Source of the DNA: a virus
Reading direction: 5' to 3' (one strand)
DNA length: 30,064 bases
Virus record (IMG/VR): IMGVR_UViG_3300047318_000129
Coordinates: 1 to 30,064 of that record
Both the position numbers and the translations under genes were made by a program. Within the stretch, counting starts at the first letter, position 1. Every line of letters starts with the position of its first letter. The notes beneath the pieces were generated by a model. That model saw only the letters and a list, made by a program, of their open reading frames with translations. It was not told the DNA's origin and made no database searches. Of the stretch, positions 2,089-27,957 are shown piece after piece.

Positions 2089-2306
2089 AGCGAGGAGGAG
2101 CGAAGTCTGGGTCGAAGTACCGGCAGGAAATGCTGGAACGTTTCCATTGCGAGACGGCGCGCGGACTGTATTTCCGCATGGCGGTGTGGCTCGCAAGCGC
2201 CCGCAACCCTACGCCGAAGCAGGTCATGGCCCGGTTTGAAGTTGGGCGTGCGACCGCCTACCGCGTAATCGCCGACTGGCGCGACGCTCAAGGAGTGGCC
2301 GCATGA
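2085..2306 (+). CDS. small helix-turn-helix protein
   Basis: GTG 2085 overlaps the previous stop as GTGA, giving 73 residues. An in-frame ATG at 2130 with a purine-rich stretch upstream is an alternative start that would give 58 residues. The C-terminal half contains a clear helix-turn-helix: 'NPTPKQVMARFEVGRATAYR' followed by 'VIADWRDAQG', where 'PKQVMARF' and 'GRATAYRVI' are the two helices. This resembles the HTH of small phage transcription factors and resolvase tails. The product is basic at its N-terminus. It is coupled by ATGA to the following nuclease gene. The regulatory target cannot be told from the sequence. Confidence 0.7.
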   Translation: MKRGGAKSGSKYRQEMLERFHCETARGLYFRMAVWLASARNPTPKQVMARFEVGRATAYRVIADWRDAQGVAA

Positions 2307-2710
2307 TCCGCACCAAGCCCCTGACCAGAAAGAAGCCGCTGCGGTCGGGCACCAAGCGGATGCGCCAAGGGCACAGCACAGGCACGCCGACGAAGGCCGA
2401 GGCCGCGCGCATGGATGCGATCAAGCAAGGTCCGTGTGTGGCCTGCCACCAGCGTGGCGTTAAGTCGTGGTGTCCAGAGGTTCACCACCTTTTGAGTGGT
2501 GGCCGCCGCATCGGCCACCTCGCCACGGTCGGGCTCTGCCAATGGCACCACCGAAGCGTGATCGCGTTCGGCTGCACGGGCGCAGAGATGCGCGAGCACT
2601 ACGGCCCGAGCTTGAACGAGGGCAGCAAACCATTCCACCAGGAGTTCGGAAGCGACGCCGTGCTGCTGGGCTATCAGGACGCGCTTTTAGAAAACCGGGA
2701 GGCGGCATGA
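2303..2710 (+). CDS. Ref-family RecA-dependent HNH nuclease
   Basis: The 135-residue product has a very basic N-terminus (residues 1-35, many Lys and Arg) followed by an HNH/zinc fold. Visible residues are C45 and C48 ('GPCVACHQRG'), 'PEVHHLLSGGRRIGHLATVG' with H61, H62 and H72, C79, H82 and H83 ('LCQWHH'), and 'FHQEFGS' at 111-117. This set and order match the Ref family first known from phage P1, a nuclease that cuts DNA at RecA-made displacement loops. The unstructured basic N-terminus is also typical. A role in phage recombination or in exploiting host RecA is inferred from the family. Both ends are coupled to neighbours by ATGA. Confidence 0.85.
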   Translation: MIRTKPLTRKKPLRSGTKRMRQGHSTGTPTKAEAARMDAIKQGPCVACHQRGVKSWCPEVHHLLSGGRRIGHLATVGLCQWHHRSVIAFGCTGAEMREHYGPSLNEGSKPFHQEFGSDAVLLGYQDALLENREAA

Positions 2711-3156
2711 AGGCTCCGCGAATCGCCATCACGGCGAGGGGGACCATTCGACAGGACGCGGGCACGATTTTCGATGATGTGCGCTCCGTAGTCGCTACAA
2801 AGGAGCGGGCAAATACAACGCCAATCGCGCGCCAAGCGGGAAAGGTGCTTTTGGCCTGCGATCACTGCGGCGTGCAATTTTGGCGAAAGTCCAGCCACGC
2901 AGGGGGCCGAAACTACTGCGGAAGGGGTTGTTCTAGCGCCGCGCAGATCAAGCGCGTTTCTTGCTCATGCACGATTTGCGGACAGTCGTTCCTCATTTGG
3001 CCGTCTGCTGTGAAGGGAGGCCGGACAACGTGCGGAAGGAAAGAGTGCATAGCGGGTCGCCAAAAGATTGTTGCAAAGGATCGGGCGCGCGATAGCCGCA
3101 GCGTCTTTTCACCCAAAGAGCCGCCGCAAACCGAAATCAACAGGGGAAACGCATGA
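2707..3156 (+). CDS. double zinc-ribbon protein of unknown function
   Basis: ATG 2707 (ATGA overlap) opens a 149-residue frame ending at TGA 3154-3156. Two zinc-ribbon-like units are visible: C51-x2-C54 with C71-x3-C75 ('NYCGRGCSS'), and C88-x2-C91 with C109-x4-C114 ('TTCGRKEC'). The C-terminus is basic and polar. Paired Cys units of this kind are found in phage homing-endonuclease-associated and other nucleic-acid-binding proteins, but no HNH or GIY-YIG catalytic motif follows. Codon use is less GC-rich than the neighbours (many AAA, ACA, ACG and GGA codons), which suggests separate acquisition. It could be the DNA-binding remnant of a homing endonuclease or a small regulator. Confidence 0.75.
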   Translation: MKAPRIAITARGTIRQDAGTIFDDVRSVVATKERANTTPIARQAGKVLLACDHCGVQFWRKSSHAGGRNYCGRGCSSAAQIKRVSCSCTICGQSFLIWPSAVKGGRTTCGRKECIAGRQKIVAKDRARDSRSVFSPKEPPQTEINRGNA

Positions 3157-13585: not shown

Positions 13586-14245
13586 ATGACCAGCCAGGTC
13601 GACATCTGCAACTTCGCGCTGCTCAAGCAGTCGCAGGACATCGCCATTGCGGCGATCACCGAGAACACCAAGGCCGCGCGCATCTTCAACCGCTGCTGGC
13701 CGCAGGTGCTCGACCTGGTGCTGGCCGAGCATTCCTGGCCGTTCGCGCTGAAGGCGATGCCGCTGGAGGAAGTGCTGCAGGCGCCGTTCCCCGGCTGGGG
13801 CAAGCGTTACGCCTACCCATCCGACTGCGTGACGGCGTTGGCCGTGTGTTCGGAGGCGGGCGTGCGGGCGGGCATCACGGCGCTGGGGGCGTGCGGCCTG
13901 GACGAGTGGCAGCAGGTGCAATTCAACGGCCGCGCCCGTTTCGAGGTCACGCACGGCGCGCAGGACACATCGATCGCCACGGACCTCGATGCCGCGTATC
14001 TGATCTACACCGCGCGCATCGAAACCGTCTCGCGCTGGCCCGTGCCGTTCGGCGAGGCCGTCGCCTGCAAGCTGGCGCACTACACCGCGCCGGCGATCAT
14101 GGGCGAGCTGGGGTTCCGCGCGCAGCAGCAGCTTGAGCAGAACTATCAGATGGCACGCGCGATTGCCGCGGCGCACGGGCTCAACCAGGCCAGCGAAGAT
14201 CCGCCGGCCGTCACACCGTCGATCGCAGCGCGGGGCGGCTACTGA
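13586..14245 (+). CDS. tail tubular protein A-like head-tail adaptor (T7 gp11-like)
   Basis: The 219-residue protein contains 'VDICNFALLKQSQDIAIAAI', 'NTKAARIFNRCWPQVLDLVL' and 'AEHSWPFALKAMPL', then 'GWGKRYAYPSDCVTALAV'. The order 'ICNxAL...I.....E..KAA..F...W..VLD..L....W.FA' then 'Y..P.DC' is the pattern of T7 gp11-like adaptor proteins. Twelve copies would sit under the portal and connect to the nozzle protein. The C-terminal helix 'LEQNYQMARAIAAAHGLNQA' fits the known helical end. Its stop overlaps the start of the nozzle gene (TGATG). Confidence 0.92.
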   Translation: MTSQVDICNFALLKQSQDIAIAAITENTKAARIFNRCWPQVLDLVLAEHSWPFALKAMPLEEVLQAPFPGWGKRYAYPSDCVTALAVCSEAGVRAGITALGACGLDEWQQVQFNGRARFEVTHGAQDTSIATDLDAAYLIYTARIETVSRWPVPFGEAVACKLAHYTAPAIMGELGFRAQQQLEQNYQMARAIAAAHGLNQASEDPPAVTPSIAARGGY

Positions 14246-15633
14246 TGGCGAAATTCCCGCAGCCGTCGATGTCGCGCGGCGAGTTGTCGCCGGGCTTGCG
14301 CGGGCGCGTCGACATTGCCGCCTATCCGATCGGGCTGGGCAAGTGCCGGGGGTTCATCACCCGGCCGACCGGCGGCGTCATCAAGCGCCCGGGGTTCCGC
14401 TTCCGCGGCAAGGTCACCGGCGCCACGCGCATCTTCCCGTTCGTCTATTCGACCTCGATCAAGTACCTGATCGAGGCGGGTAATCTCTACTTCCGGTTTT
14501 GGGTCAACGGTGCGCGCCTGACCGAAACCCCAAAGGCGATCACCGGCGCCACGGCGGCGAATCCGGTCGTCATCACCAGCAACGCCCACGGCTACGCCAA
14601 CGGCGCCAAGGTCACCATCGAAGGCGTGCGCGGCATGACCCGCCTGAACGGTGGCGTCTACACCGTCGCCGGGGTCACGGCCAACACCTTCCAGCTGTCC
14701 GGCGTCGACGGCACCGCGTTCGCGGCCTATGCCAGCGGCGGCACCGTGGCCACGGTGGTCGAAGTCGCCACCCCGTACACCACGGCCGACCTGCAGGACG
14801 TGCGCATCACGCAATCGGCGGACGTGCTGTACCTGGTGCACGGCTCCCGCGCGCCGCGCGAACTGCGCCGACTCACCACCACCAGTTTCGAGTTGCGCGA
14901 GTTCAATTTCCGCCTAGGTCCGTTCCGCCTGCTCAACGGCGAGAACGCGGTCGTCATGGCCGCCTCCGCCGCGACCGGCAACGTCACCGTCACCTGCAAC
15001 GCCGGGGTGTTTCATCCGGGGATGGTCGGCGGGTTGGCCTACCTGGAGGAAAAGGAACTGCGCACGGTCAAGCCGTGGGAGCCGCTGGCGCGCAACGTCG
15101 CCGTGGGCAGCTACCGCCGCAGCGACGGCAAGGTCTACCGCGCCACCGCGTTCGCAGCCAAGCCGGCCACGCCTGGCGCCCCGTACAACATCACCGGCAA
15201 CTCGCGCCCACTGCATGAAGTCGGTCGTGCGTGGGACGGCCCGGGCGACATCCGCGACGACGGCGTGAACGGCTACAGCGTCGGCGTGGAATGGGAATAC
15301 GTGCACGGCGGCTTCGGCATCGTGAAGATCACCGGCTATACCAGCGCCACGCAGGTCACCGGCGTGGTGGTGCAGCGTGTCCCCGATTCGTGCGTGGGCA
15401 CGGCGGCGGTGCCGGCGGTCGGCCCCTGGACCATCAGCGGCGATGGCGTCACCAAGACCTTCGCCGTGGCCGGCGCCACCAGCCCGACGCAAGCCGACTA
15501 CGCCGTGACCATCAGCGGCGCCCCGATCTCCCAAGACCCCTATGTCGAGCCCGCCACGGGCGGCAACGGCACCGGCGGCGGCAGCAACGTCGGCCAGAAC
15601 CTGGGCGATCGCGGCAATTACTACCTACCGTGA
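14245..15633 (+). CDS. nozzle/tail tubular protein B-like, N-terminal piece (gene in pieces)
   Basis: The 462-residue piece begins 'MAKFPQPSMSRGELSPGLRG', the classic start of T7 gp12-like nozzle proteins, and continues with 'CRGFITRPTGGVIKRPGFRF' and 'VTIEGVRGMTRLNGGVYTVA', an inserted beta domain. Near the end 'TISGDGVTKTFAVAGATSPT' and 'DYAVTISGAPISQDPY' begin a beta domain whose remaining part, 'WSVDDVADSITFLEAPPVGV', is found only in the downstream piece. The frame stops at TGA 15631 after a Gly-rich stretch and 'NYYLP'. An HNH endonuclease gene follows in the same frame after three sense codons. Function would need both pieces to associate, or the gene is inactivated. Confidence 0.9.
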   Translation: MAKFPQPSMSRGELSPGLRGRVDIAAYPIGLGKCRGFITRPTGGVIKRPGFRFRGKVTGATRIFPFVYSTSIKYLIEAGNLYFRFWVNGARLTETPKAITGATAANPVVITSNAHGYANGAKVTIEGVRGMTRLNGGVYTVAGVTANTFQLSGVDGTAFAAYASGGTVATVVEVATPYTTADLQDVRITQSADVLYLVHGSRAPRELRRLTTTSFELREFNFRLGPFRLLNGENAVVMAASAATGNVTVTCNAGVFHPGMVGGLAYLEEKELRTVKPWEPLARNVAVGSYRRSDGKVYRATAFAAKPATPGAPYNITGNSRPLHEVGRAWDGPGDIRDDGVNGYSVGVEWEYVHGGFGIVKITGYTSATQVTGVVVQRVPDSCVGTAAVPAVGPWTISGDGVTKTFAVAGATSPTQADYAVTISGAPISQDPYVEPATGGNGTGGGSNVGQNLGDRGNYYLP

Positions 15634-15642
15634 GGCGCTGAT

Positions 15643-16173
15643 ATGACGCAGACCACAGCACAGCGCGCCGCAGCGTATAGGGCGCGCCACCCAGAGAGGG
15701 CCAAGGCAGCGCAGCGCAGGTACTACGCAAGCCATGCCGTTGACTGCAACGAGCGTAGCAACGAGTGGAAGCGTAGAAACGCTACGACCACCGAACCAAA
15801 GCAGCGCAAAACCATTGCGGAAATTCGCGAGTACAAAGCCGCATTTGCGAGGAAGTGGAGGTCTGAAAATCCAGCTCGCTCGCAGCTGAATGAAAAGAAC
15901 CATCGCGATCGAAACCGTGCAGCCATCAGGATTTCAAAATGCGATAGCGAGGCGGCTCGTAGAAAGCGCGCTCCCAAATGGGTTGATAGGCAGGCGTGCC
16001 GCGTCTTTTACGAGATAGCGAGCCGTGTAACGGAATGCACAGGCATCCGGTTCCACGTTGATCACATCCACCCGCTTCTCGGAAAAGTGTCGTCCGGGCT
16101 GCATGTTCCTTGGAACCTGCGCGTGATTCCGGCGCGCGCCAATATCGTGAAATCAAATCGGATGGAGTGCTGA
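15643..16173 (+). CDS. HNH homing endonuclease inserted in the nozzle gene
   Basis: ATG 15643 has GAGG seven bases upstream, formed partly by the preceding stop (TGAGG). The 176-residue product has an N-terminal region with repeated '[19 protein letters not shown]'-type units and a C-terminal HNH motif: '[20 protein letters not shown]' followed by '[16 protein letters not shown]' (H138, D140, H141, H143, N158, N167, N172). This is a full phage HNH endonuclease pattern. Base and codon use (AAA, ACG, AGG, ATA-type choices) is clearly less GC-rich than both flanking gene parts, indicating recent transfer. It probably cuts the intact nozzle gene of related phages and spreads by repair. Confidence 0.92.
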
Positions 16174-16175
16174 CC

Positions 16176-17903
16176 ATGGCTCAGGGTTGGTCAGTGGACG
16201 ACGTTGCGGACTCCATCACCTTTCTGGAGGCGCCGCCCGTTGGTGTGAACAACGTGGTGGTGAAGCAGTACGCGGCCAACGCGGTCGGCGGCACCGATGC
16301 GTTTGCGCTGGGAGCGTGGTCGACGGCCTACGGCTGGCCGACCGAGGTCGAGTTCTTCTCCGATCGCCTGTGGTTCGCCGGCACGCCGGTCGACCCGCAG
16401 ACGATTTGGGGGTCGCAGATCGGCGATTACGCCAACTTCGGCAAGTCGACCCCGATCACCGCATCGGACGCGGTGACCTTCACCATCAACGCGCGCCAGG
16501 TCAACGCGGTCATGGACCTGGTGCCGCTCGATCAACTGCTGCTGCTCACCAAGGGCGGCGAGTTCGTGATGACCGGCGGCCAGGATCAGGTCGTCACCCC
16601 GGAAACCATCGCGGTAAAGCCGCAGAGCTACCTGGGCACCGGCGGGCTGCAGGCCAAGGTCGTGGGCGACACCGCGATTTTCGTACGCGAGCAGGGCTCG
16701 CATGTGTTCGACGTCGGCTATCGCTACGAGAACGAAGGCTACCGGCCGACCGACCTGTCGGTGTGGGCCGATCACCTGGTCGAGGGCCGCACGATCCTGC
16801 GTCTGGAATGGATGCCGGCGCCGTGGTCGGTGCTGCCGATGGTGCGCGATGACGGTGTGCTGCTGGGCTGCACCTACATGCCCGAGCAGGAGGTGATCGG
16901 CTGGCACTGGCACGACACCGGCCGCGACCTGCAGGGCACCGGCACCGACACCTTCCTCGACCTGGTGTGCCTGCCGGGCACGCAGCAGACCGAGCTGTAC
17001 GTGCTGACGCAGCGCGTCGTGAACGGCGTGGCCGAGACCTACCTGGAAGAAATGGCGACCTCCGTCGTCGATGACATTCGCGACTGGTTCTATGTCGACG
17101 CCGGCCTGACCTACGACGGCCGCAACGAGACCGCCACCACGCTGGCGCTCTCTACGGCGGGGGGCTGGACCGAACTGGACACGCTGACCCTGACCGCGAG
17201 CAGCGTTACGGGCATCAACGAGGGGCTGGGCTTCCTGGCGTCCGACGTGGGCGACGGCTTCCTGCTGTCGACGCAGGTACTGGAGACCAACCCGGGCACC
17301 GGCGAAACCGCGCTGGTGCCCTACAAGGTGCACGTGCAGGTGGCGTCGTACTCCTCGGCCACGGCGGTCAACGTGATTCCGGTGGGCACGGTCCCGGTGC
17401 AGTTGCGCAACGTGGCTACGTCCGAATGGGTGTTCGAGCGCGACACGATCACCAACCTGTGGCACCTGGAAGGCCGCGAGTGCGCGATCCTGACCGATGC
17501 CTCGGTGCATAGCCGCAAGGTCGTGACGAATGGGCAAGTGACGCTCGACGCGCCGGCCGGTGTCGTGCACGTCGGCCTGCCGTATGTGGCGCAGATCGAG
17601 TCGCTGGAGATCAATGCGGCCGGCGGCTACGTCCGCGACGCGAAAAAGCTGATCTACGAGGTGTCGCTGCTGCTGCGCAACACCCGCGGCGTCAAGGTCG
17701 GCACGAATCTCGCCTATCTCGACGACGTGCCACAACGCCAGTTTGAAGGCTGGGGCGAGCCGACGCTGCCGCAGACCGGGCTGGTGAAGTGCCTGGTGTC
17801 GAACCAGTGGGGCGAGAACGAGGGCGTGTTCCACGTGGTCAGCGATGACCCGCTGCCGTGCGAAATCCTCGCGATCGTGCCGAAGGTGATGGTGGCCGGG
17901 TGA
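16176..17903 (+). CDS. nozzle/tail tubular protein B-like, C-terminal piece (gene in pieces)
   Basis: The start is ATG 16176, two bases after the endonuclease stop, with GGAG at 16164-16167. An earlier ATG at 16110 lies within the endonuclease gene and would add unrelated residues. The 575-residue piece begins 'MAQGWSVDDVADSITFLEAP', which finishes the beta domain started in the upstream piece, then 'GGTDAFALGAWSTAYGWPTE', 'QTIWGSQIGDYANFGKSTPI' and 'DAVTFTINARQVNAVMDLVP', all standard in gp12-like proteins. The end, 'NEGVFHVVSDDPLPCEILAI', is the usual C-terminus. It is coupled by GTGA to the next gene. The intact reading frame over 1.7 kb suggests selection for a working protein. Confidence 0.9.
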   Translation: MAQGWSVDDVADSITFLEAPPVGVNNVVVKQYAANAVGGTDAFALGAWSTAYGWPTEVEFFSDRLWFAGTPVDPQTIWGSQIGDYANFGKSTPITASDAVTFTINARQVNAVMDLVPLDQLLLLTKGGEFVMTGGQDQVVTPETIAVKPQSYLGTGGLQAKVVGDTAIFVREQGSHVFDVGYRYENEGYRPTDLSVWADHLVEGRTILRLEWMPAPWSVLPMVRDDGVLLGCTYMPEQEVIGWHWHDTGRDLQGTGTDTFLDLVCLPGTQQTELYVLTQRVVNGVAETYLEEMATSVVDDIRDWFYVDAGLTYDGRNETATTLALSTAGGWTELDTLTLTASSVTGINEGLGFLASDVGDGFLLSTQVLETNPGTGETALVPYKVHVQVASYSSATAVNVIPVGTVPVQLRNVATSEWVFERDTITNLWHLEGRECAILTDASVHSRKVVTNGQVTLDAPAGVVHVGLPYVAQIESLEINAAGGYVRDAKKLIYEVSLLLRNTRGVKVGTNLAYLDDVPQRQFEGWGEPTLPQTGLVKCLVSNQWGENEGVFHVVSDDPLPCEILAIVPKVMVAG

Positions 17904-18938: not shown

Positions 18939-20956
18939 TGGCTGCGATCGTTCCGCGCGCGAATCCCACGGTGCCGCAGATCAACTCGCTGGCACCGGTG
19001 CGCAACAACACGCAGGTGCAGGCCCCGACCGGCATGGCCGCGGCCGTGGGCTCGGTCGTCGGCGGCGCAATGGATGTCGTGCAAAAGCACAAGGAGCAGG
19101 GCGACCTGACCGCGCTGATGCAGGCGCGGCGCGAACTGTCCGACCACGAACTGGCGTTGTTCGATCCGGCCAACACGACGGGCGTCTACAGCTTCAAGGG
19201 CAAGGACGCACTGGAGGCCGGCAGCAAGGTCGGCGCCGACTTCGACACCAAGGCCGGCGAGATCGCCGGCCGCCTCACCCCCGACCAGCGGGCGCGCTTC
19301 GATCAGATCGCACTGGCCTCGCGCGAGTCGATCCTGGGTCGCGTGCAGAACTATGCCGGCGGCGAATACCGGCAGTGGGAAGCGGCCGACCGCAAGGCGA
19401 GCCTGTCGAGCGTGGTGGCCACGGGCGTCACCGCGGCGCTGGATGGCGACGAAGCCACCGGCACCGCGCGCCTGGCCGAGGCGCTGCACATGCAGCAGCT
19501 GTCGGACCTGGCCGATGGCCAGTCGGAAGCCGTGCAGCGGGTCAACGCGCAGGCGATGACGTCCGGCTACCACATGCAGGTGCTGGCCTCACTGGTCGAC
19601 CGCGACTATGCGACGGCCGAGGACTACCTGAGCCAGCACCGCAACGCGCTGCTACCGGAGGACCGCATCAAGGTCGAGGGCGTGCTGCGTCCGATCGCCG
19701 ACGATGGCGAGGCCGACACCCTGGCCACGGCGATCGTCAACGGCGGGCAGGTGTCGACCGGCCACGACGGCAACATCGCCGCGCGCTCGGCCAACGATCC
19801 GGTGTCGGTGCAAAAGGATTTTCGCGGGCTGGCCGACACGCACGGCTTCGACATTTCCAGCACGAAGCGGCCGGTGCTGGCCATCGGCGCCGGTGCTCGA
19901 TCGCAGCATCCGAAGGGCACAGCGGCCGACTTCAGCGTGCAGGGCAAGACGAAGGCCGAAGGCGATGCGCTGATCGCGGACCTGAAGCGGCACGGGTTCG
20001 AGGTCATCGACGAGCGCGACGGCAAGACCGGCACCGGCCCGCACATTCACGCCGAACTGCCGCCGGACGCGAAGCGCGGCGGCGAGCCCGTCGCCTATGC
20101 CGCGGCGACCACGCTGGGCGAGGCGCTGGAACGCACCAAGGCGATCACCGACCCGCGCAAGCGCCGGGCGGTCGAGCAGCACGTCCGCTCGCAGTGGTCC
20201 GTCATGGAGGCCGACCGCACCGACCGCGAGCGCGTGGCGCTGGAGGGCATGCGCGCCAAGATCGGGGCTGACGATGGCTCCGCACCGCTGCGCAAGGTGC
20301 TGGGCGCCGATTACGCCGAGGCCGAAAAGCAGGGCTGGCTGGGCACCCTCAACGCGGAAATGGACGCCAAGCGCACGGGCACGCTGGTCAAAACCAACCC
20401 GATCACCTACGACCGCTTTGCGCGCCTGCGCGTCACCGATCCGGTCGAGTTCGCCAAGCCGGCGACCAAGCTGGCGATCGAGAAGGCCGCGGGCGAACTG
20501 GACACCGGCGACCTGGCGCGACTGCAAGGCGACTGGGCCGACGCCAACGATCCGAAGAAGCGCGAGGCCGCGCTAAACCAGCGCAAGATCGAGGCGGGGC
20601 TGGTGAAGGAAGGGCTGGCCACGCTCGGCTATACCGGCAGCGGCGACAAGGAAAAGGCGGCGGCGTTCGGGCTCGCCATTGCGCAGGCGCGGCAGGTGTT
20701 CCGCGACACCAACAAGGGCGTGTATCCGACGCCCGAGCAGGACCGCGCGCTGGTCGGTTCGGTCACGCGTCGCTTCCTCAATGACGGCGACACCGCCAAG
20801 GAACGCGCCGAGTCGTATTCGCGCTTCTCGCTGAAGCTCACGTCCGACGAGCGCGACCGCGCCCGCCGCGGACTGATCGGCATGGGCGTGGCTGCGCCGA
20901 GTGAAAGTCAAATCATCGAAGCGGCGAGCGTGCTGCTCAACCGGGGTAATCAGTGA
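18938..20956 (+). CDS. internal core protein (T7 gp15-like) with embedded M15-type peptidase motif
   Basis: The 672-residue, mostly helical protein lies in the gp15 position. The start is ATG 18938 in a TGATG overlap. A distinct module at about residues 285-380 has 'GARSQHPKGTAADFSVQG' and 'GTGPHIHAEL': H324, D331 and H369/H371 match the zinc ligands and active-site pattern of M15 (DD-peptidase/hedgehog-type) enzymes ('SxHxxGxAxD ... HxH'). Such a domain would cut peptide links in peptidoglycan. The rest is Ala/Glu/Arg-rich helices typical of ejection proteins. Inferred role: part of the trans-envelope channel, able to loosen murein during entry. The stop overlaps a GTG start of the giant gene. 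Confidence 0.88.
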   Translation: MAAIVPRANPTVPQINSLAPVRNNTQVQAPTGMAAAVGSVVGGAMDVVQKHKEQGDLTALMQARRELSDHELALFDPANTTGVYSFKGKDALEAGSKVGADFDTKAGEIAGRLTPDQRARFDQIALASRESILGRVQNYAGGEYRQWEAADRKASLSSVVATGVTAALDGDEATGTARLAEALHMQQLSDLADGQSEAVQRVNAQAMTSGYHMQVLASLVDRDYATAEDYLSQHRNALLPEDRIKVEGVLRPIADDGEADTLATAIVNGGQVSTGHDGNIAARSANDPVSVQKDFRGLADTHGFDISSTKRPVLAIGAGARSQHPKGTAADFSVQGKTKAEGDALIADLKRHGFEVIDERDGKTGTGPHIHAELPPDAKRGGEPVAYAAATTLGEALERTKAITDPRKRRAVEQHVRSQWSVMEADRTDRERVALEGMRAKIGADDGSAPLRKVLGADYAEAEKQGWLGTLNAEMDAKRTGTLVKTNPITYDRFARLRVTDPVEFAKPATKLAIEKAAGELDTGDLARLQGDWADANDPKKREAALNQRKIEAGLVKEGLATLGYTGSGDKEKAAAFGLAIAQARQVFRDTNKGVYPTPEQDRALVGSVTRRFLNDGDTAKERAESYSRFSLKLTSDERDRARRGLIGMGVAAPSESQIIEAASVLLNRGNQ

Positions 20957-23900
20957 CCGACCGCGACGACATCGACCTGCTTTCGGAACACTTCGCGCAG
21001 CGCACCCGCGAAACGGCGCTGACCGCTCCGGCCGTCTCGCCCGACGATATGGCCAAGGCGCAGCGCCTGGCGCAGATTCGTGGCGTGCCGCCGCTGGCCG
21101 TGGCGCAGGATCTGCCGCATTACGACGAGCAGGACCGGCTCGACCGGCTGACCGCGTTGGCCAAGGCGCAACCGAAGGTCGGCACGTTCCTGCAGGACCC
21201 GCAGAACGCCACGCTCGCCAAGGGCGAGGAGGACAAGCTGGGCGTGCTCGGTCGCGTGCTGGCCGGCTGGCATGGCTCGATCTTCAACGCGCCGATGCGC
21301 GGCCTGGAGCGGGCCGGCGTGGGGGAGGCGTTCAAGCTGGGCGATACGTCCACGCTGGCATCGCTGTGGCACACCATCACCGATACGCTGGATCAGACCA
21401 CGCAGCGGCCCGTGCGCGATCTGACCGCGGCGCTGCACATCACCGACGACCGTGGCGAAAACCCGTTCGGCGATCCGCTGGGCTTCCAGTCGCAGGCCGA
21501 GCAGTCGCTGGGCGCGGTGCGCGAGATCGGCAAGGATCAGCAGGCCAAGGCGGAGGCGATCGGCAAGCGCCCGGCGTTCGGCGACTTCCTGCGCAATCCG
21601 AACCAGGCGATCGAGCAGCTGTTCGCCTACTACGGCAACCAGGGCACGCAGTCGGCGCCGGCAATCGCGCTGGCCGTGGCCGCGCGTAACCCGGAGATCG
21701 GCGGCGCCCTGATGGGCGGCACGACCGGTGCGCAGACGTATGCCGACCTGCGCGCCGATGGCGTCGACCGTTCGCGTGCGGCACCGGCGGCGATCGAGTC
21801 GGGATTCGTCGAGTCAGCGCTGGGCAGTACCGGCTTGGAAGCGGCGATGAAGCCGGGCGTGCGCGCGTTGGTCACCGGCCCGCTAACCGAGGCCGGCACC
21901 GAAGGGCTGACGCAGTGGGGGCAAAACGAATTTGACGACCTGGCGCGCGGGCGCAAGACGCCGCTGGCCGATAAGGTTTCGCAGCTGATCGACGCGGCCG
22001 CGCTGGGCCTGGGCTTTGGCGTGGGCGAGAAGGTCGGCAGCGGCGCGATCGAGGCCGTGGCCGGCGAGCGTGACGTGAAGCAGTCGCGCCAGGTGTCCAG
22101 CAACATCACGCAGGCATTGCGCAGCGGCGACAACGCGAGCCGCGTGGCCGCGATCACCGAAGCCGCGGCGAACCTGAAGCTGGGCAAGTTGAGCCCGCAG
22201 ACGCTGGCCACCTTCGTCGATCACGTGGGCGGCGGCAACGTCTACCTGGCGCCCGACCAGGCGCGCACGCTGTTTCAGTCCGAGCGCATGAGCGCCGACC
22301 AGGCCCTGGGCGAGATCCTGGGCTCCGCCGATGCGCTGGCCGTGGCCGAAGCCAGCGGCGGCGACGTCGTGATCCCGATGGCGCTCTACGCCAGCCGCAT
22401 CGCGCAGCTGCCCAACGCGGCCGAGATCGCCAAGCACGTCCGCCTGCACCCCGAGGATTACTCCGCCGCCGACCTCGACGCCGGCAAGGCCGAGGAGGAT
22501 ATGGCCGCGACGTTCGGCAATACCGACGCCGCGGCCGAGCGCGCGAAGCCCGAGGACGGCGACACCATCGAGCGCATCCGGCAGGACGTGCTGGGCCAGC
22601 TGCAGGCGACCAACCGCTACGCCCCGGCCGATGCCGAGCGCCAGGCGAAGCTGTACGCCGCGGTATTCCGCACGCTGGGCCAGCGCACCGGGCAGGACGC
22701 GGGCGCGCTGTACGACCGCTACGCGCTGCGCATTCGTGGCAGCAAGCCCGACATCCTGAGGCAGAAGCCCAACACCCTGACCGCTGACCTCGACTCCGCG
22801 CTGACCGCCGCACGCGCCGGGCAGATGCCGAGCGAGGCCGATGCGTTCGGTCCCTCGCTGATCGAGTTCCTGCGCGAAAAGGGCATCGGCGCGGCCGATG
22901 GCATGGAGGGCGAGATCCGTCGCCTGGCCGAGTCGGAACGTGTCGGACGCGGCGGGCAGCGTCGCCTGTTCCGTTCTGACGACGCGCATGCGCCTGGGCT
23001 GGACCGTGCGCGCGAGGCCGCAGCCGAGGCGGGTTATCTCTCGCCCGAGGCCGACCTGTCCGACTTCCTGGAACTGCTGGATCAGGACATCGGCGGCAAG
23101 CCGGTGTACTCCAGCGCCCGCGAGAACCGCGCGCTGGTCGACAAGCGCAACGACGTGCTGAACCTGCAGGGCGCCATCGCCGAGGCGTTCGGCGATGTGA
23201 GCAATGAGGATCTGGCGAAGCTCTCGAATCAGGAGATTGCCGATCGCCTGTTCCCGGAAACGCTGGATCAGGGAGCACGCGAACTGGACTTCGGCGGTCG
23301 GGCCGACGAACAGCTCGATGCCGAATACGACGCGCTGCCTGCAACAGAAGGTGGACGGAGACTAGACACCGACCTGGTGCGGGAGTTGTCGCCCGAGTAT
23401 CGGGCCGATCGCACGCTGTCCTCCCTCATCCATAAGGCGGCCTCGACCTGGACGAAGGCGAGGTTTCTGCGGATGCTGGCGAAGCCAGTGTCCGAAGGCC
23501 GCGACCGCGCTGTGATGTTCACGGCGGGCGGTGGCGGTTCCGGCAAGTCCACTGCCGTGCAGGACGTGCTGGGCGACAGCAATGCGGACGTGATCTATGA
23601 CGGGACGCTCTCCAATCTGACGCGGGCGCGGGCTGACATCGAGGCAGCGCTGGCCAGCGGCAGGGACGTGCGAATTGCCTACGTCTACCGCTCTCCGAAA
23701 AGCTCGGCGGCCAGTGCCATCGGGCGCGCCATCCGTAGCGGGCGCCCCGTGCCCGTCTCCGTGCTGGCCGAGGCACATGCCAAGGCGACCCAAGTGGTCA
23801 AGGCGTTGGCCCTGGAGTATGCTGATGACGCCCGAGTTGGAATTGTCGCAATAAACAACGACGGAGAGGCAGGAAAAGCCGAGCGTATGCCGATCGGCGC

Positions 23901-26900
23901 CGTGCCCGAGGTAAGCCAGAATGAAGCCGAGTCAGTCTTCCGCGCCGCTCTCGAAGAAGCCCGCGCCAACGGTGCCATCGACGAAGCCCTCTATGCCGCT
24001 TTCGATGGACGATCGACCGACCCCGAAGTGGGCGCAGGCGATCATCGACAATCTGAATCGAAACGCCAAGGCGCGAGTCGAAACACCCTAAACCAAAACC
24101 CCGCCGCCGGCGGGGTTTCTGCTTCTGTGCCCCGCGGTTCCATCGGCATCGCGCCCGACCACCGCATGTCGATCACGCTGCTCGAAGGCGCCGACCTGTC
24201 GACGTTCCTGCACGAGTCGGGGCACTTCTTCCTCGAAGTGCTGGCCGACCTGGCTGCCGATACGCCGGCGCTCGCCGGTGACTTCGATGCGCTGCTGCAG
24301 TGGTCGAAGGTCGAAGGCGGCACGCCCGAGGCACGCGCCGCGAAATGGGCGTCGATGTCGCTGGACGAAAAGCGCCCGATGCACGAGCAGATTGCGCGCG
24401 GGTTTGAACTCTACTTGGCCGAGGGCAAGGCGCCGAGCGTCGAGCTAGCCTCCGCGTTCGCGCGCTTCAAGTCGTGGATGCTGGCGGTCTACAAGGCGTT
24501 GTCGCAGTTGGACGTGAAGCTCACGCCCGAGGTGCGCGGCGTGTTCGATCGCCTGCTGGCGACGGACGAGGAGATCGAACTGGTCGAGCAGCGCCAGGGC
24601 ATCGGCCCGCTGGTGGCCGCGTCCGAGTTCAAGGGCCTGGGCCTGACCGAAACGCAGTGGGCCGACTACCAGGCGATGCTCGAAGCGGCCAGCGAGGAAG
24701 GCAAGGCCGAGGTGTTCGCCAAGCTGCACAAGGCGTACCAGCGCGAGGCGCAAGCGTGGTGGAAGGAGGAGCGGGCGAAGGTCCGCACCGAGGTCGCCGA
24801 CGAGTTCGAAGCCGAGCCGATGGTGCGCGCGTGGCGCGTGCTGGCCGGTCGCAAGGTCGAGGGGCTGGCCCCGGCGCTCGCGGGCCTGAAGCTGGACCGC
24901 GACGCACTGCTGGCCACCTACGCGAAGGACTACGTACAGGGCCGCCTGAAGCCGCTGGGCGTCTATGCCGTCAAGGGCGGCGTGCATCCCGACACCGCGG
25001 CCGCGATGCTGGGCCTGCCGTCCGGTGACGCGCTGGTGCAGGGGCTGGCCACGGTAAAGGAGCGCATCGCGCGCGTCGACGCCGAAACCGATGCCCGCAT
25101 GCGCGAGCGTCACCCGGACCCGCTGACCGATGGCTCGCTGCCGGAATTGGCCGAGCGTGCCGTGCACAATTCCGCGCGGGTGAAGGCGCTGCAGTTCGAG
25201 CTAGACCTGCTGGCCAAGCTCGCCGGGCAACCGGTGCCGAAGGCCCGGGCCATCCGCCTGTTCGCGCAGCGGCAGATTGCCGGCGTGGCGATCAAGCGCC
25301 TGCTCCCGAATGCCTACCTGGCGGCCGAGCGCAAGGCCGCCCGGGAAGCGACGAAGGCCGCGGCAAAGGGCGACTATGCGGAAGCGCTGAAGTTCAAGCG
25401 CGACCAGGCGGTGCAGGCCGTGCTCTACAGCGAGGCCCGCGCGGCGCTGGATCAGGTCGAATCGCACGTCGACTACGCCCGCAAGTTCGACAAGCCGAGC
25501 ACGCGCCAGCGCATCGGCAAGGCCGGCGGCGACCTGCTGGAGATGATCGACGGCGTGCTGGCCGCGTATTCCTTCCGTCCGCAGTCGGACAAGGCGCGCG
25601 AGCGCGCCGCCACCTTGCGGCAGTGGTACGACCGCATGCTCGCGCAAGGCGTCGAGCCGCAGGTCGACCCGAAGGTGCTGGCCACGATCGAATCCGCGCG
25701 CCTGACCCATTACCGCGAGTTGACGGTGGGCGAGCTCGGCGCGGCGGTGGAGATCGTCAAGCAGCTGGAGCACCAAGCGAAGGAAGCCAACGAGATCCGC
25801 CTGGCCGGCGACAAGCTGCAGCTGGAAGTCGAGGCCGGCAACCTGTCGGCCGCAATCCTGACGGGGCTGGAGCATCGCGGCCCGCCGCCCATTTCCAACA
25901 CCCTGCGCAACACGCCGGTGGAAGTGACCAAGAAGGGCGCGCGGTTCCTCGGCGCGGTGCTGCTGCGACTGCGCACGCTCGCGCATTGGGTCGACGGCGA
26001 GGGCAACGTCGAGGGCGCGTTCCATCGCCTGATCGTGCGCCCGCTCGATCGCGCGCAGGCGGCCTACCTGGACGCGATGGCCGACTACGGCCAGAAGGTG
26101 ATCGGCCTGTTCGACGAGCACCTGAAGGGCCAGGACCTGACCGCTCCGATCTGGATCGCCTCGCTCAATCAGAACCTGACGAAAGCCGACATCCTCGCCG
26201 CAGCGCTCAACACCGGCAACGCCTCCAACCTGCAGCGCCTGCGCGACGGCATGGGCTGGGGCGATGTGCAGATGACCGAGATCATGCAGAAGATGGGGCG
26301 GGCCGACTGGCAGTTCGTGCAATCGGTGTGGGACACGCTGGAAAGCCTGTGGCCGCAGATCGCCGAGCAGCACAAGCGCCTGAACGGTATCGCTCCGCCC
26401 AAGATCGACGCGCTCCCGGTGCAAACCCCGTGGGGCACGCTGCGCGGCGGGTATTACCCGGTGATGTACGACAAGGATTCGGTGCAGTGGGAGGGCGTGT
26501 TTGGCAAGGCCGACGAGTCGCTATTCGACCCTATGGCGATGACCGCGCTGCCGGCGCAGGGCCATACCAAGAGCCGCGTCGACCAGGCGCGCATCCCCCT
26601 GAAGCTCGACCTGGCCGGCATTCCCGCGCACCTGTCCAACGTGCTGAAGGATCTCACCCACCGGGAAACACTGATCGGCATGCGCAAGCTGCTCAAGCAG
26701 CCGGAAGTCATCGCCGCGCTGCATGAAACCCTCGGCCCGGAAGCCTCGCGCTTCCTCAACGACAAGCTGAAGCACGTCGCGACCGATCAGGTGTATCAGT
26801 TCGCCGGCACCATGAAGGCGGTGGCCGGCTTCTCGCACGGCTTGCGCCGGCATGTGGGCGTGATGGCGATGGGCTACAGCGTGGCCACCGGCATCAAGCA

Positions 26901-27957
26901 GGTGCTGGGCTTCTCGACCGCGCTCGAAGTGCTGACCGCGCGCTACGGCATCAAGGCACCGAAGATCCTGGCCAAGGGCTACCTGGAAATGCTGCGCGGC
27001 CGCGGCGCCTCGGTGCAGGCGGTGCGCTCGCTCTCGGGCGAAATGCGCCACCGTCTGGATACCGTCGACGCCGACGTGCGCAACCTGTACCAGCAATACC
27101 TCGCCGGCCGCATGGCGCAGGGCGCGGGGGCCAAGGTCGGGCGCGCTTACGACGCCTTCCGCTTCCACGCCTTCGCGGTGATCCGCTACGCGCAGGGCTA
27201 CCTGGTCGACATCCCGACCTGGCTGGCCGCGCATGAGGGCGCGCTACAGCAGGGCCTGACCGGCGATGCCGCGGTGGCCGCGGCTGATGACGTGATGATC
27301 GCCTCGCAGGGTGCCGGCGGTGCCAAGGATCAGGCGCTCATCGAGGGCAACATCCCGGGCGTCGAGCTGTTCACCATGTTCTACAGCTACGCCAATGCCT
27401 ACTTCAACCGGCAGATGACGCTCGGCCGCGACGTGGGCAAGTCGCTGCAGGGTGGGCCCGGGCAGTTCTTCGCCGAGTTGCCCCTGCTGTCGGCTCGCTT
27501 CGCGTGCCTGTCGGTGGTGCCGGTGATCCTGGAGGAGTTGATCTCCCAGGCGATCGGGCAGAGCGATGGGCCCGACGACGACGACAACCTGGCGGCGTAC
27601 TACGGCTTGCGCGTGCTCGCGTATCAGTTCTACGGCGTGCCGATCCTGCGCGACTTCCTGCCGAACAAGCTCGGCACGCAAAAGGGCGCCTACCGCATCA
27701 GCCCGGCGCAGTCGGCGATGGACTCGCTTGGCAAGCTGTGGGACGACGCGGAAAAGACCGCGCAAGGCGATGCACCCGAAGCGCGCAAGGCCGCGCGCGA
27801 TGCCGTGAACGCGGTGGGCTACACCTTCGGCCTGCCGCTGGCCGGCCCTTGGAAGCACGTGGACTACCTGTGGCGCTACTTCGAGGGCGAGGAAGATCCC
27901 GACTCCGTGCCCGAGTTCGCTGCCGCTGTCGCGACCGGCAAGCGCGAACAGCAATAA
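20953..27957 (+). CDS. giant 2334-residue polyvalent ejection protein with zeta-toxin-like and metallopeptidase domains
   Basis: GTG 20953 overlaps the previous stop (GTGA). This is the gp16-position protein, larger than T7 gp16 (about 1300 residues). Visible regions: helical N-terminus; Gly/Ala-rich hydrophobic segments at about 233-258 and 347-372; a zeta-toxin-like P-loop kinase at about 804-1035 with 'GGGGSGKST' (859-867) and 'YDGT' (882-885); an HExxH site 'HESGH' (1087-1091) with 'HEQIARGFE' (1144-1152) giving a probable third ligand E1152; long helical regions; and a C-terminal hydrophobic stretch near 2172-2197. Polyvalent proteins with such mixed domains are injected with DNA. The kinase segment and its flanks are less GC-rich and use rarer codons. 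The catalytic roles are inferred from motifs. Confidence 0.93.
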   Translation: MTDRDDIDLLSEHFAQRTRETALTAPAVSPDDMAKAQRLAQIRGVPPLAVAQDLPHYDEQDRLDRLTALAKAQPKVGTFLQDPQNATLAKGEEDKLGVLGRVLAGWHGSIFNAPMRGLERAGVGEAFKLGDTSTLASLWHTITDTLDQTTQRPVRDLTAALHITDDRGENPFGDPLGFQSQAEQSLGAVREIGKDQQAKAEAIGKRPAFGDFLRNPNQAIEQLFAYYGNQGTQSAPAIALAVAARNPEIGGALMGGTTGAQTYADLRADGVDRSRAAPAAIESGFVESALGSTGLEAAMKPGVRALVTGPLTEAGTEGLTQWGQNEFDDLARGRKTPLADKVSQLIDAAALGLGFGVGEKVGSGAIEAVAGERDVKQSRQVSSNITQALRSGDNASRVAAITEAAANLKLGKLSPQTLATFVDHVGGGNVYLAPDQARTLFQSERMSADQALGEILGSADALAVAEASGGDVVIPMALYASRIAQLPNAAEIAKHVRLHPEDYSAADLDAGKAEEDMAATFGNTDAAAERAKPEDGDTIERIRQDVLGQLQATNRYAPADAERQAKLYAAVFRTLGQRTGQDAGALYDRYALRIRGSKPDILRQKPNTLTADLDSALTAARAGQMPSEADAFGPSLIEFLREKGIGAADGMEGEIRRLAESERVGRGGQRRLFRSDDAHAPGLDRAREAAAEAGYLSPEADLSDFLELLDQDIGGKPVYSSARENRALVDKRNDVLNLQGAIAEAFGDVSNEDLAKLSNQEIADRLFPETLDQGARELDFGGRADEQLDAEYDALPATEGGRRLDTDLVRELSPEYRADRTLSSLIHKAASTWTKARFLRMLAKPVSEGRDRAVMFTAGGGGSGKSTAVQDVLGDSNADVIYDGTLSNLTRARADIEAALASGRDVRIAYVYRSPKSSAASAIGRAIRSGRPVPVSVLAEAHAKATQVVKALALEYADDARVGIVAINNDGEAGKAERMPIGAVPEVSQNEAESVFRAALEEARANGAIDEALYAAFDGRSTDPEVGAGDHRQSESKRQGASRNTLNQNPAAGGVSASVPRGSIGIAPDHRMSITLLEGADLSTFLHESGHFFLEVLADLAADTPALAGDFDALLQWSKVEGGTPEARAAKWASMSLDEKRPMHEQIARGFELYLAEGKAPSVELASAFARFKSWMLAVYKALSQLDVKLTPEVRGVFDRLLATDEEIELVEQRQGIGPLVAASEFKGLGLTETQWADYQAMLEAASEEGKAEVFAKLHKAYQREAQAWWKEERAKVRTEVADEFEAEPMVRAWRVLAGRKVEGLAPALAGLKLDRDALLATYAKDYVQGRLKPLGVYAVKGGVHPDTAAAMLGLPSGDALVQGLATVKERIARVDAETDARMRERHPDPLTDGSLPELAERAVHNSARVKALQFELDLLAKLAGQPVPKARAIRLFAQRQIAGVAIKRLLPNAYLAAERKAAREATKAAAKGDYAEALKFKRDQAVQAVLYSEARAALDQVESHVDYARKFDKPSTRQRIGKAGGDLLEMIDGVLAAYSFRPQSDKARERAATLRQWYDRMLAQGVEPQVDPKVLATIESARLTHYRELTVGELGAAVEIVKQLEHQAKEANEIRLAGDKLQLEVEAGNLSAAILTGLEHRGPPPISNTLRNTPVEVTKKGARFLGAVLLRLRTLAHWVDGEGNVEGAFHRLIVRPLDRAQAAYLDAMADYGQKVIGLFDEHLKGQDLTAPIWIASLNQNLTKADILAAALNTGNASNLQRLRDGMGWGDVQMTEIMQKMGRADWQFVQSVWDTLESLWPQIAEQHKRLNGIAPPKIDALPVQTPWGTLRGGYYPVMYDKDSVQWEGVFGKADESLFDPMAMTALPAQGHTKSRVDQARIPLKLDLAGIPAHLSNVLKDLTHRETLIGMRKLLKQPEVIAALHETLGPEASRFLNDKLKHVATDQVYQFAGTMKAVAGFSHGLRRHVGVMAMGYSVATGIKQVLGFSTALEVLTARYGIKAPKILAKGYLEMLRGRGASVQAVRSLSGEMRHRLDTVDADVRNLYQQYLAGRMAQGAGAKVGRAYDAFRFHAFAVIRYAQGYLVDIPTWLAAHEGALQQGLTGDAAVAAADDVMIASQGAGGAKDQALIEGNIPGVELFTMFYSYANAYFNRQMTLGRDVGKSLQGGPGQFFAELPLLSARFACLSVVPVILEELISQAIGQSDGPDDDDNLAAYYGLRVLAYQFYGVPILRDFLPNKLGTQKGAYRISPAQSAMDSLGKLWDDAEKTAQGDAPEARKAARDAVNAVGYTFGLPLAGPWKHVDYLWRYFEGEEDPDSVPEFAAAVATGKREQQ
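24005..24091 (+). pseudogene. relict 28-codon reading frame overlapping the end of the zeta module
   Basis: In the frame shifted by one base from the giant gene, ATG 24005 opens 28 codons (MDDRPTPKWAQAIIDNLNRN...) ending at TAA 24089-24091, five bases before a perfect terminator stem. The peptide looks like a plausible small helical protein ('PKWAQAIIDNLNRNAKARVE'), more so than the main-frame translation here, which is Gln/Ser/Arg-rich. It is best explained as the end of an ancestral transcription unit captured with the toxin. It may no longer be translated. Confidence 0.5.
24096..24120 (+). terminator. terminator-type hairpin inside the giant reading frame
   Basis: AAACCCCGCC (24096-24105) pairs perfectly with GGCGGGGTTT (24109-24118) around a 3-base loop, followed by CTGCTTCTG rather than a continuous T run. 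It encodes Q1048 to S1056 of the giant protein in frame. Its form and its place after a stop codon in another frame suggest a former intrinsic terminator. Whether it still stops transcription is unknown. Confidence 0.7.

Follow-up and report, generated by a model that had tools for sequence, protein, structure and literature searches.

Free-standing, homing-type insertions near essential phage genes have been reviewed (PMC10448857, PMC2988022). In Aeromonas phage Aeh1 (nrdA-a/mobE/nrdA-b), an HNH endonuclease gene stands between two pieces of one gene without an intron, and the split has been reported to result from its insertion (PMC3653736, PMC2988022); in the case of DNA polymerase genes 43A/43B (Aeromonas phages 44RR and 25), the split may have come first and the endonuclease afterwards (PMC2988022). 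The naturally split phage proteins that we found in the literature are enzymes, and no description of a split tail nozzle was found in the limited set of open-access literature searched. Here we analyse the 30,064-base virus record IMGVR_UViG_3300047318_000129 (the whole stretch is called the window below), which has a podophage-type gene order and in which two genes, A and B, flank an HNH endonuclease gene. By their sequence matches, A and B together plausibly encode one podophage nozzle (gp12/tail tubular B) as two chains, and we consider it very probable that this two-chain nozzle was inherited and that the HNH gene arrived later without causing the split.

Relatives were found by tblastn and pattern searches and are cited by L-numbers, which are rows of relatives, L001 being the window's own copy. 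The junction comprises the following features.

14245..15633, plus strand: gene A, N-terminal nozzle chain, 462 amino acids (matches PHROG 376, PHROG 20269 and 8ck1_A)
15427..15540, plus strand: first half of the split beta domain (WTISGDG...ISQDPY), placed by alignment with relatives and with the uncut L083 and L129
15541..15630, plus strand: Gly-rich C-terminal tail of A, the interrupted loop (counterpart tail in HNH-free relatives; disordered in the L102 model)
15632..15635, plus strand: GAGG, resembling a ribosome site, 7 bases before the HNH start, read from the sequence
15643..16173, plus strand: free-standing HNH endonuclease gene, 176 amino acids, low in guanine plus cytosine (G+C) (PHROG 26577, E = 2.8e-20; PHROG 1035, E = 7.7e-14)
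16051..16158, plus strand: HNH catalytic region (FHVDHIHPL...), from the sequence and alignment with L032
16164..16167, plus strand: GGAG in the last codons of the HNH gene, 8 bases ahead of the B start, read from the sequence
16176..17903, plus strand: gene B, C-terminal nozzle chain, 575 amino acids, starting MAQGW (PHROG 15566, E = 7.6e-180; PHROG 376; 8ck1_A)
16188..16271, plus strand: second half of the split beta domain (WSVDDVADSITFLEAPPVGVNNVVVKQY), from alignment and from strands in the L102 model

The coordinates and descriptions of A, the HNH gene and B in the earlier note proved correct, including non-coding gaps of exactly 9 bases between A and the HNH gene and 2 bases between the HNH gene and B; so did its claim that the two frames together match one gp12-like nozzle. 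On PHROG 376, a tail-protein profile of 712 positions, A covers positions 4–277 (E = 2e-67) and B positions 275–710 (E = 4e-126), and the solved tail nozzle chain of Carin1 (8ck1_A) is likewise covered in adjacent stretches, residues 109–312 by A (best stretch) and 316–828 by B (E = 4e-96). Profile coverage, the solved-nozzle match and gene order all place A plus B with the nozzles; that a nozzle is one gene and one chain does not hold here, and PHROGs keep the pieces as two families, 20269 (A) and 15566 (B). Among relatives, A is 53–60% identical to that of the window. The single-gene nozzles of epsilon15 and Carin1 pass straight through the split point without an extra beta domain. The two half-sequences read as one such domain, which is present whole and uncut in the single-open reading frame (ORF) nozzles L083 and L129. 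HTVC024P had been considered as a named phage with the uncut domain and was rejected, as the domain is absent there. Gene A also carries an insert (window positions 14551–14757) with a Pfam match (E = 1.6e-10) to E1_FCCH, a domain of ubiquitin-activating enzymes; present in CP2, L004, L005 and L032 and absent from most other aligned relatives (for example, L008–L015), it appears to be a second optional nozzle domain.

Comparison with relatives separated the split from the endonuclease. A and B stand side by side and HNH-free in Xanthomonas phages CP2, Olaya, SAC and 10KY502B, in about 44 IMG/VR contigs and in 3 Stenotrophomonas genomes, about 50 records in all. Their A and B ORFs overlap (TAATG, TGATG, ATGA) or lie no more than 12 bases apart; with few exceptions, the C-terminus of A is a Gly-rich tail or an added domain, and MxQGW or a close variant opens B. 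Every split relative retains both half-domains in conserved form, and across these relatives the identity of B falls to about 34%. The earlier note had attributed the split to the endonuclease, as in Aeh1 nrdA, and had itself listed HNH-free two-gene relatives as grounds for giving that account up; with two genes at exactly this position and no endonuclease between them, CP2, Olaya, SAC, 10KY502B and the others are such relatives. It had correctly read the end of A as a half-domain followed by a Gly-rich tail, although this tail is the normal end of A in HNH-free relatives and does not belong to the insertion. Two nozzles are interrupted in other ways: in Pseudomonas phage UFJF_PfDIW6 (L050:2055–4524), the nozzle is annotated as two overlapping genes at quite a different place, which may reflect a sequencing frameshift or another split, and in L128:3062–5531 the nozzle ORF is interrupted within a conserved region, the pieces overlapping over a long stretch, probably because of a frameshift error.

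The tree points the same way. In a tree of 45 B regions, a single branch (support 87/84) separates the 24 rows with a split gene from all others, and split versus single genes requires one change in 90% of bootstrap trees. The window pairs with its nearest relative, L002 (100/98), which has no HNH gene. As far as these sequences go, the split appears old and clade-wide, and the HNH gene appears to have come late and sporadically to a gene boundary that already existed. The uncut domain of the L083/L129 type would represent the ancestral state, although the tree does not place these two as sisters of the split clade, and the order of events would be gain of the domain, splitting of the gene in the domain's loop and landing of the HNH gene at the junction.

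The HNH gene was found at the junction in the window, L032 and L079, and is absent from the roughly 50 other records. Its product is 55% identical over 105 amino acids to that of the gene at the same junction in L032, and L079 starts inside an HNH gene that ends in the same sequence as that of L032. No match to the protein was found in Pfam or NCBIfam, and its HNH motif is shown by PHROG 1035 (endonuclease VII) and PHROG 26577; strict patterns found no close relatives in IMG/VR, and distant relatives in phages are 27–48% identical among the matches listed. The gene holds the lowest G+C stretch of the window (56.9%, compared with 66–69% in A and B), with a third-position G+C of 63% compared with 90% in A and B, which fits a recent arrival. 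Directly before it stands the octamer GAGGCGCT, which also precedes the B start in CP2. With this octamer before the HNH gene and GGAG in its last codons, both nozzle genes keep a plausible ribosome site. The flanking genes end and start as they do in relatives with an empty junction, and the HNH gene thus lies between genes. The insertion has the character of an ordinary free-standing homing-type HNH gene near an essential gene, with putative cleavage activity. The best local match between its borders, in a search for target-site repeats, was 16 bases, equalled by 29% of shuffles and thus not evidence; a search for a hairpin that masks the start of the HNH gene, of the kind seen in T4 homing genes, found none (z = −0.39), and no promoter or terminator at the junction scored above chance. 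A second low-G+C patch (window positions 2303–3156) holds overlapping ORFs that match a Ref-like endonuclease and, weakly, an HNH family; BLASTP showed no relation between these ORFs and the junction HNH gene.

In relatives, purifying selection acts on A as well as on B, and neither piece is decaying: ratios of nonsynonymous to synonymous substitution rates (dN/dS) for A and B were 0.03–0.11 in four close pairs. The A and B genes of L102 share a frame and are separated by a single TAA; reading through this stop served purely as a modelling device, as nothing suggests that the phage does so. The read-through model (predicted local distance difference test (pLDDT) score of 75) had the Carin1 tail as by far its best match in the PDB (E = 1e-67; template modelling score of 0.79, normalised by target), and T7 gp12 matched it by predicted fold. 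When the split beta domain was folded alone, the strands of both halves mostly scored 78–94 and the linker mostly below 50. The domain's nearest PDB structures are weakly matched podophage tail-complex chains (E = 0.03 and worse), and its BFVD matches include fibre proteins among others (E of about 1e-4 to 1e-2), suggesting a weak likeness to tail-fibre attachment domains; the structural alignments span about 100–120 columns, long enough to cover both halves. A profile comparison of the domain with the N-terminus of the window's own fibre was not significant. In these predictions, A and B plausibly complete one beta domain around a floppy Gly-rich linker (domain complementation). Of the earlier note's proposal, the joining of two chains by complementation therefore remains plausible on the tree, the L102 model, the domain fold and dN/dS, and the endonuclease as cause of the split does not stand.

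The case for an Aeh1-like origin, in which the HNH gene split a single nozzle gene and was later lost from the nuclease-free relatives while the split remained, draws on the position of the gene exactly at the split in the window, L032 and L079, and on the reality of the Aeh1 precedent. An insertion-caused split would nonetheless need a single ancient gain followed by many exact losses over about 50 records, whereas the tree forces the two HNH tips apart, requiring two separate changes (the window and L032), the low G+C of the window's gene suggests recency, and the deep split branches L034, L036, L086 and L102 have no HNH homologue at the junction. We regard this origin as very unlikely. A different challenge concerns the domain itself: both chains may be virion proteins while the half-domains are remnants, with A and B meeting only through old nozzle interfaces. 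Carin1 and epsilon15 nozzles lack the beta domain, which hence is not needed for a nozzle as such, and complementation is a predicted arrangement; against this, both half-domains are kept in all split relatives, and the strands of both are confidently predicted together. Remnant half-domains seem improbable. Some observations do weigh against an inherited two-chain nozzle of complementing halves. The fold was predicted on a one-chain read-through of a relative, neither on two chains nor on the window's own pair; the branch uniting the split nozzles has moderate support; and in L039 the cut lies slightly earlier, leaving a Gly-rich stretch on the N-terminus of B (L039:378–465), such that the cut may have slid within the same loop or arisen twice.

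That A and B might become one protein after all, through an intron, an intein, programmed frameshifting or read-through, is suggested by the several relatives in which they share a frame with one stop between them and by some with an intein-like domain on A. An Rfam search at E values up to 5 returned one chance match only, with no intron at the site, and the gaps leave no space for a group I intron core, which bears out the earlier note on this point and led us to reject such an intron at the junction. The frame of B relative to A varies among relatives (overlapping TAATG or ATGA in most, the same frame in others), the window has a whole gene with its own stop between A and B, and B begins at a start of its own, preceded by a ribosome-like site. 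A split intein was also rejected: A ends in the Gly-rich tail, B starts MAQGW as in relatives, and the junction ends have no Pfam match. In L005, L014, L132, L053 and L100, on three tree branches, A runs on into about 130–150 residues that by eye resemble an intein-type (Hint) domain, with a starting Cys and an ATHN end (CVDA...TPM...ATHN; L005:4620–4991, L014:6100–6539); those of L005 and L014 had no Pfam, NCBIfam or PDB match, the identity being assigned by eye only. As HN is followed by none of Cys, Ser and Thr, self-cleavage is likelier than splicing, and B starts normally in these relatives, so the domain is no splicing intein linking A to B. We give the single-protein alternative almost no credence.

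An inherited two-chain nozzle with a later HNH gene would have arisen as follows. The single-chain nozzle of an ancestor would have carried an additional beta domain at the place that lies between residues 312 and 316 in Carin1. In the ancestor of the clade, the gene would have been cut in the domain's long loop by a stop and a new start, a mutational route that we infer, leaving the arrangement that is observed, with a Gly-rich tail on A and MxQGW at the start of B. Selection keeps both chains in relatives; they are probably translated one after the other and, from conservation and structure prediction, would assemble by completing the beta domain and packing like a single-chain nozzle. A free-standing HNH homing-type gene would then have landed at the A/B boundary, presumably by homing and independently in at least two tips. 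In the window, it would have come to lie behind the old ribosome-binding site of B, using that site and supplying a new GGAG for B; A and B are undamaged because the HNH gene reuses the old site and brings GGAG at its own end. The domain loop may, more broadly, be a standing break point, being the place of the gene split, the Gly-rich tail, the intein-like domain on A (at least three branches) and the HNH gene. A two-chain nozzle could then be more than tolerated, with the free A tail and the split, fibre-anchor-like domain acting as a moving or processed part in tail assembly or DNA ejection, a speculative reading, the break-point idea included, that we think improbable.

The surrounding genes of the window run in the order terminase, portal-like connector, major head protein, tail adaptor, nozzle, internal virion proteins, a very long ORF and fibre. 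One further feature adjoins A on its 5' side.

13586..14245, plus strand: tail adaptor gene, tail tubular A-like (PHROG 394, E = 1.3e-41)

The TGA of the adaptor gene overlaps the ATG of gene A. Downstream of the nozzle lie genes matching PHROG 308 and PHROG 418, and the adaptor–nozzle–internal virion protein order is the same in CP2 and epsilon15. Window positions 20953–27957 form one ORF of 2,334 amino acids (PHROG 9880, no known function), the CP2 equivalent of which is an ORF of 7,437 bases.

If the two chains are confirmed in virions, a whole clade uses two domain-completing chains to build an essential structural ring whose subunits normally consist of one chain each, in a state old enough for the pieces to have diverged to about 34% identity, and podophage nozzles would offer a natural cut site for engineering. 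The locus would also be a clear example of a homing-type endonuclease gene exploiting, not creating, a gene split. We regard the clade-wide, old split of a virion nozzle inside a domain as of moderate interest, and as more interesting than the HNH insertion, which is ordinary. Among described systems, the single-chain nozzles of Carin1 (8ck1) and epsilon15 (gp12) are homologous to the sum of A and B, but each is one chain and lacks the extra beta domain; T7 gp12 is likewise a single-chain nozzle, its likeness being one of predicted fold. In Thermus phage phiYS40, one protein is encoded by nrdJ-a and nrdJ-b, ORFs that follow one another across a 12-base gap without an intervening mobile element (PMC3653736), although this is an enzyme and a single reported case. 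The mobE gene between nrdA and nrdB of T4-like phages is similarly a free-standing HNH gene at the boundary of neighbouring conserved genes (PMC2988022), but there the neighbours are different subunits rather than halves of one domain. An Aeh1-type split is marked by an uncut gene in endonuclease-free relatives, whereas the nozzle's relatives are split without the insertion. The 43A/43B genes are a better match than Aeh1 nrdA: a gene in two pieces with cooperating products, split in one relative without an endonuclease and in another with a free-standing endonuclease at the split. They differ in encoding a replication enzyme rather than a virion part and in the 44RR spacer, which is an untranslated element, while the nuclease-free split of the nozzle extends over about 50 records and a whole clade.

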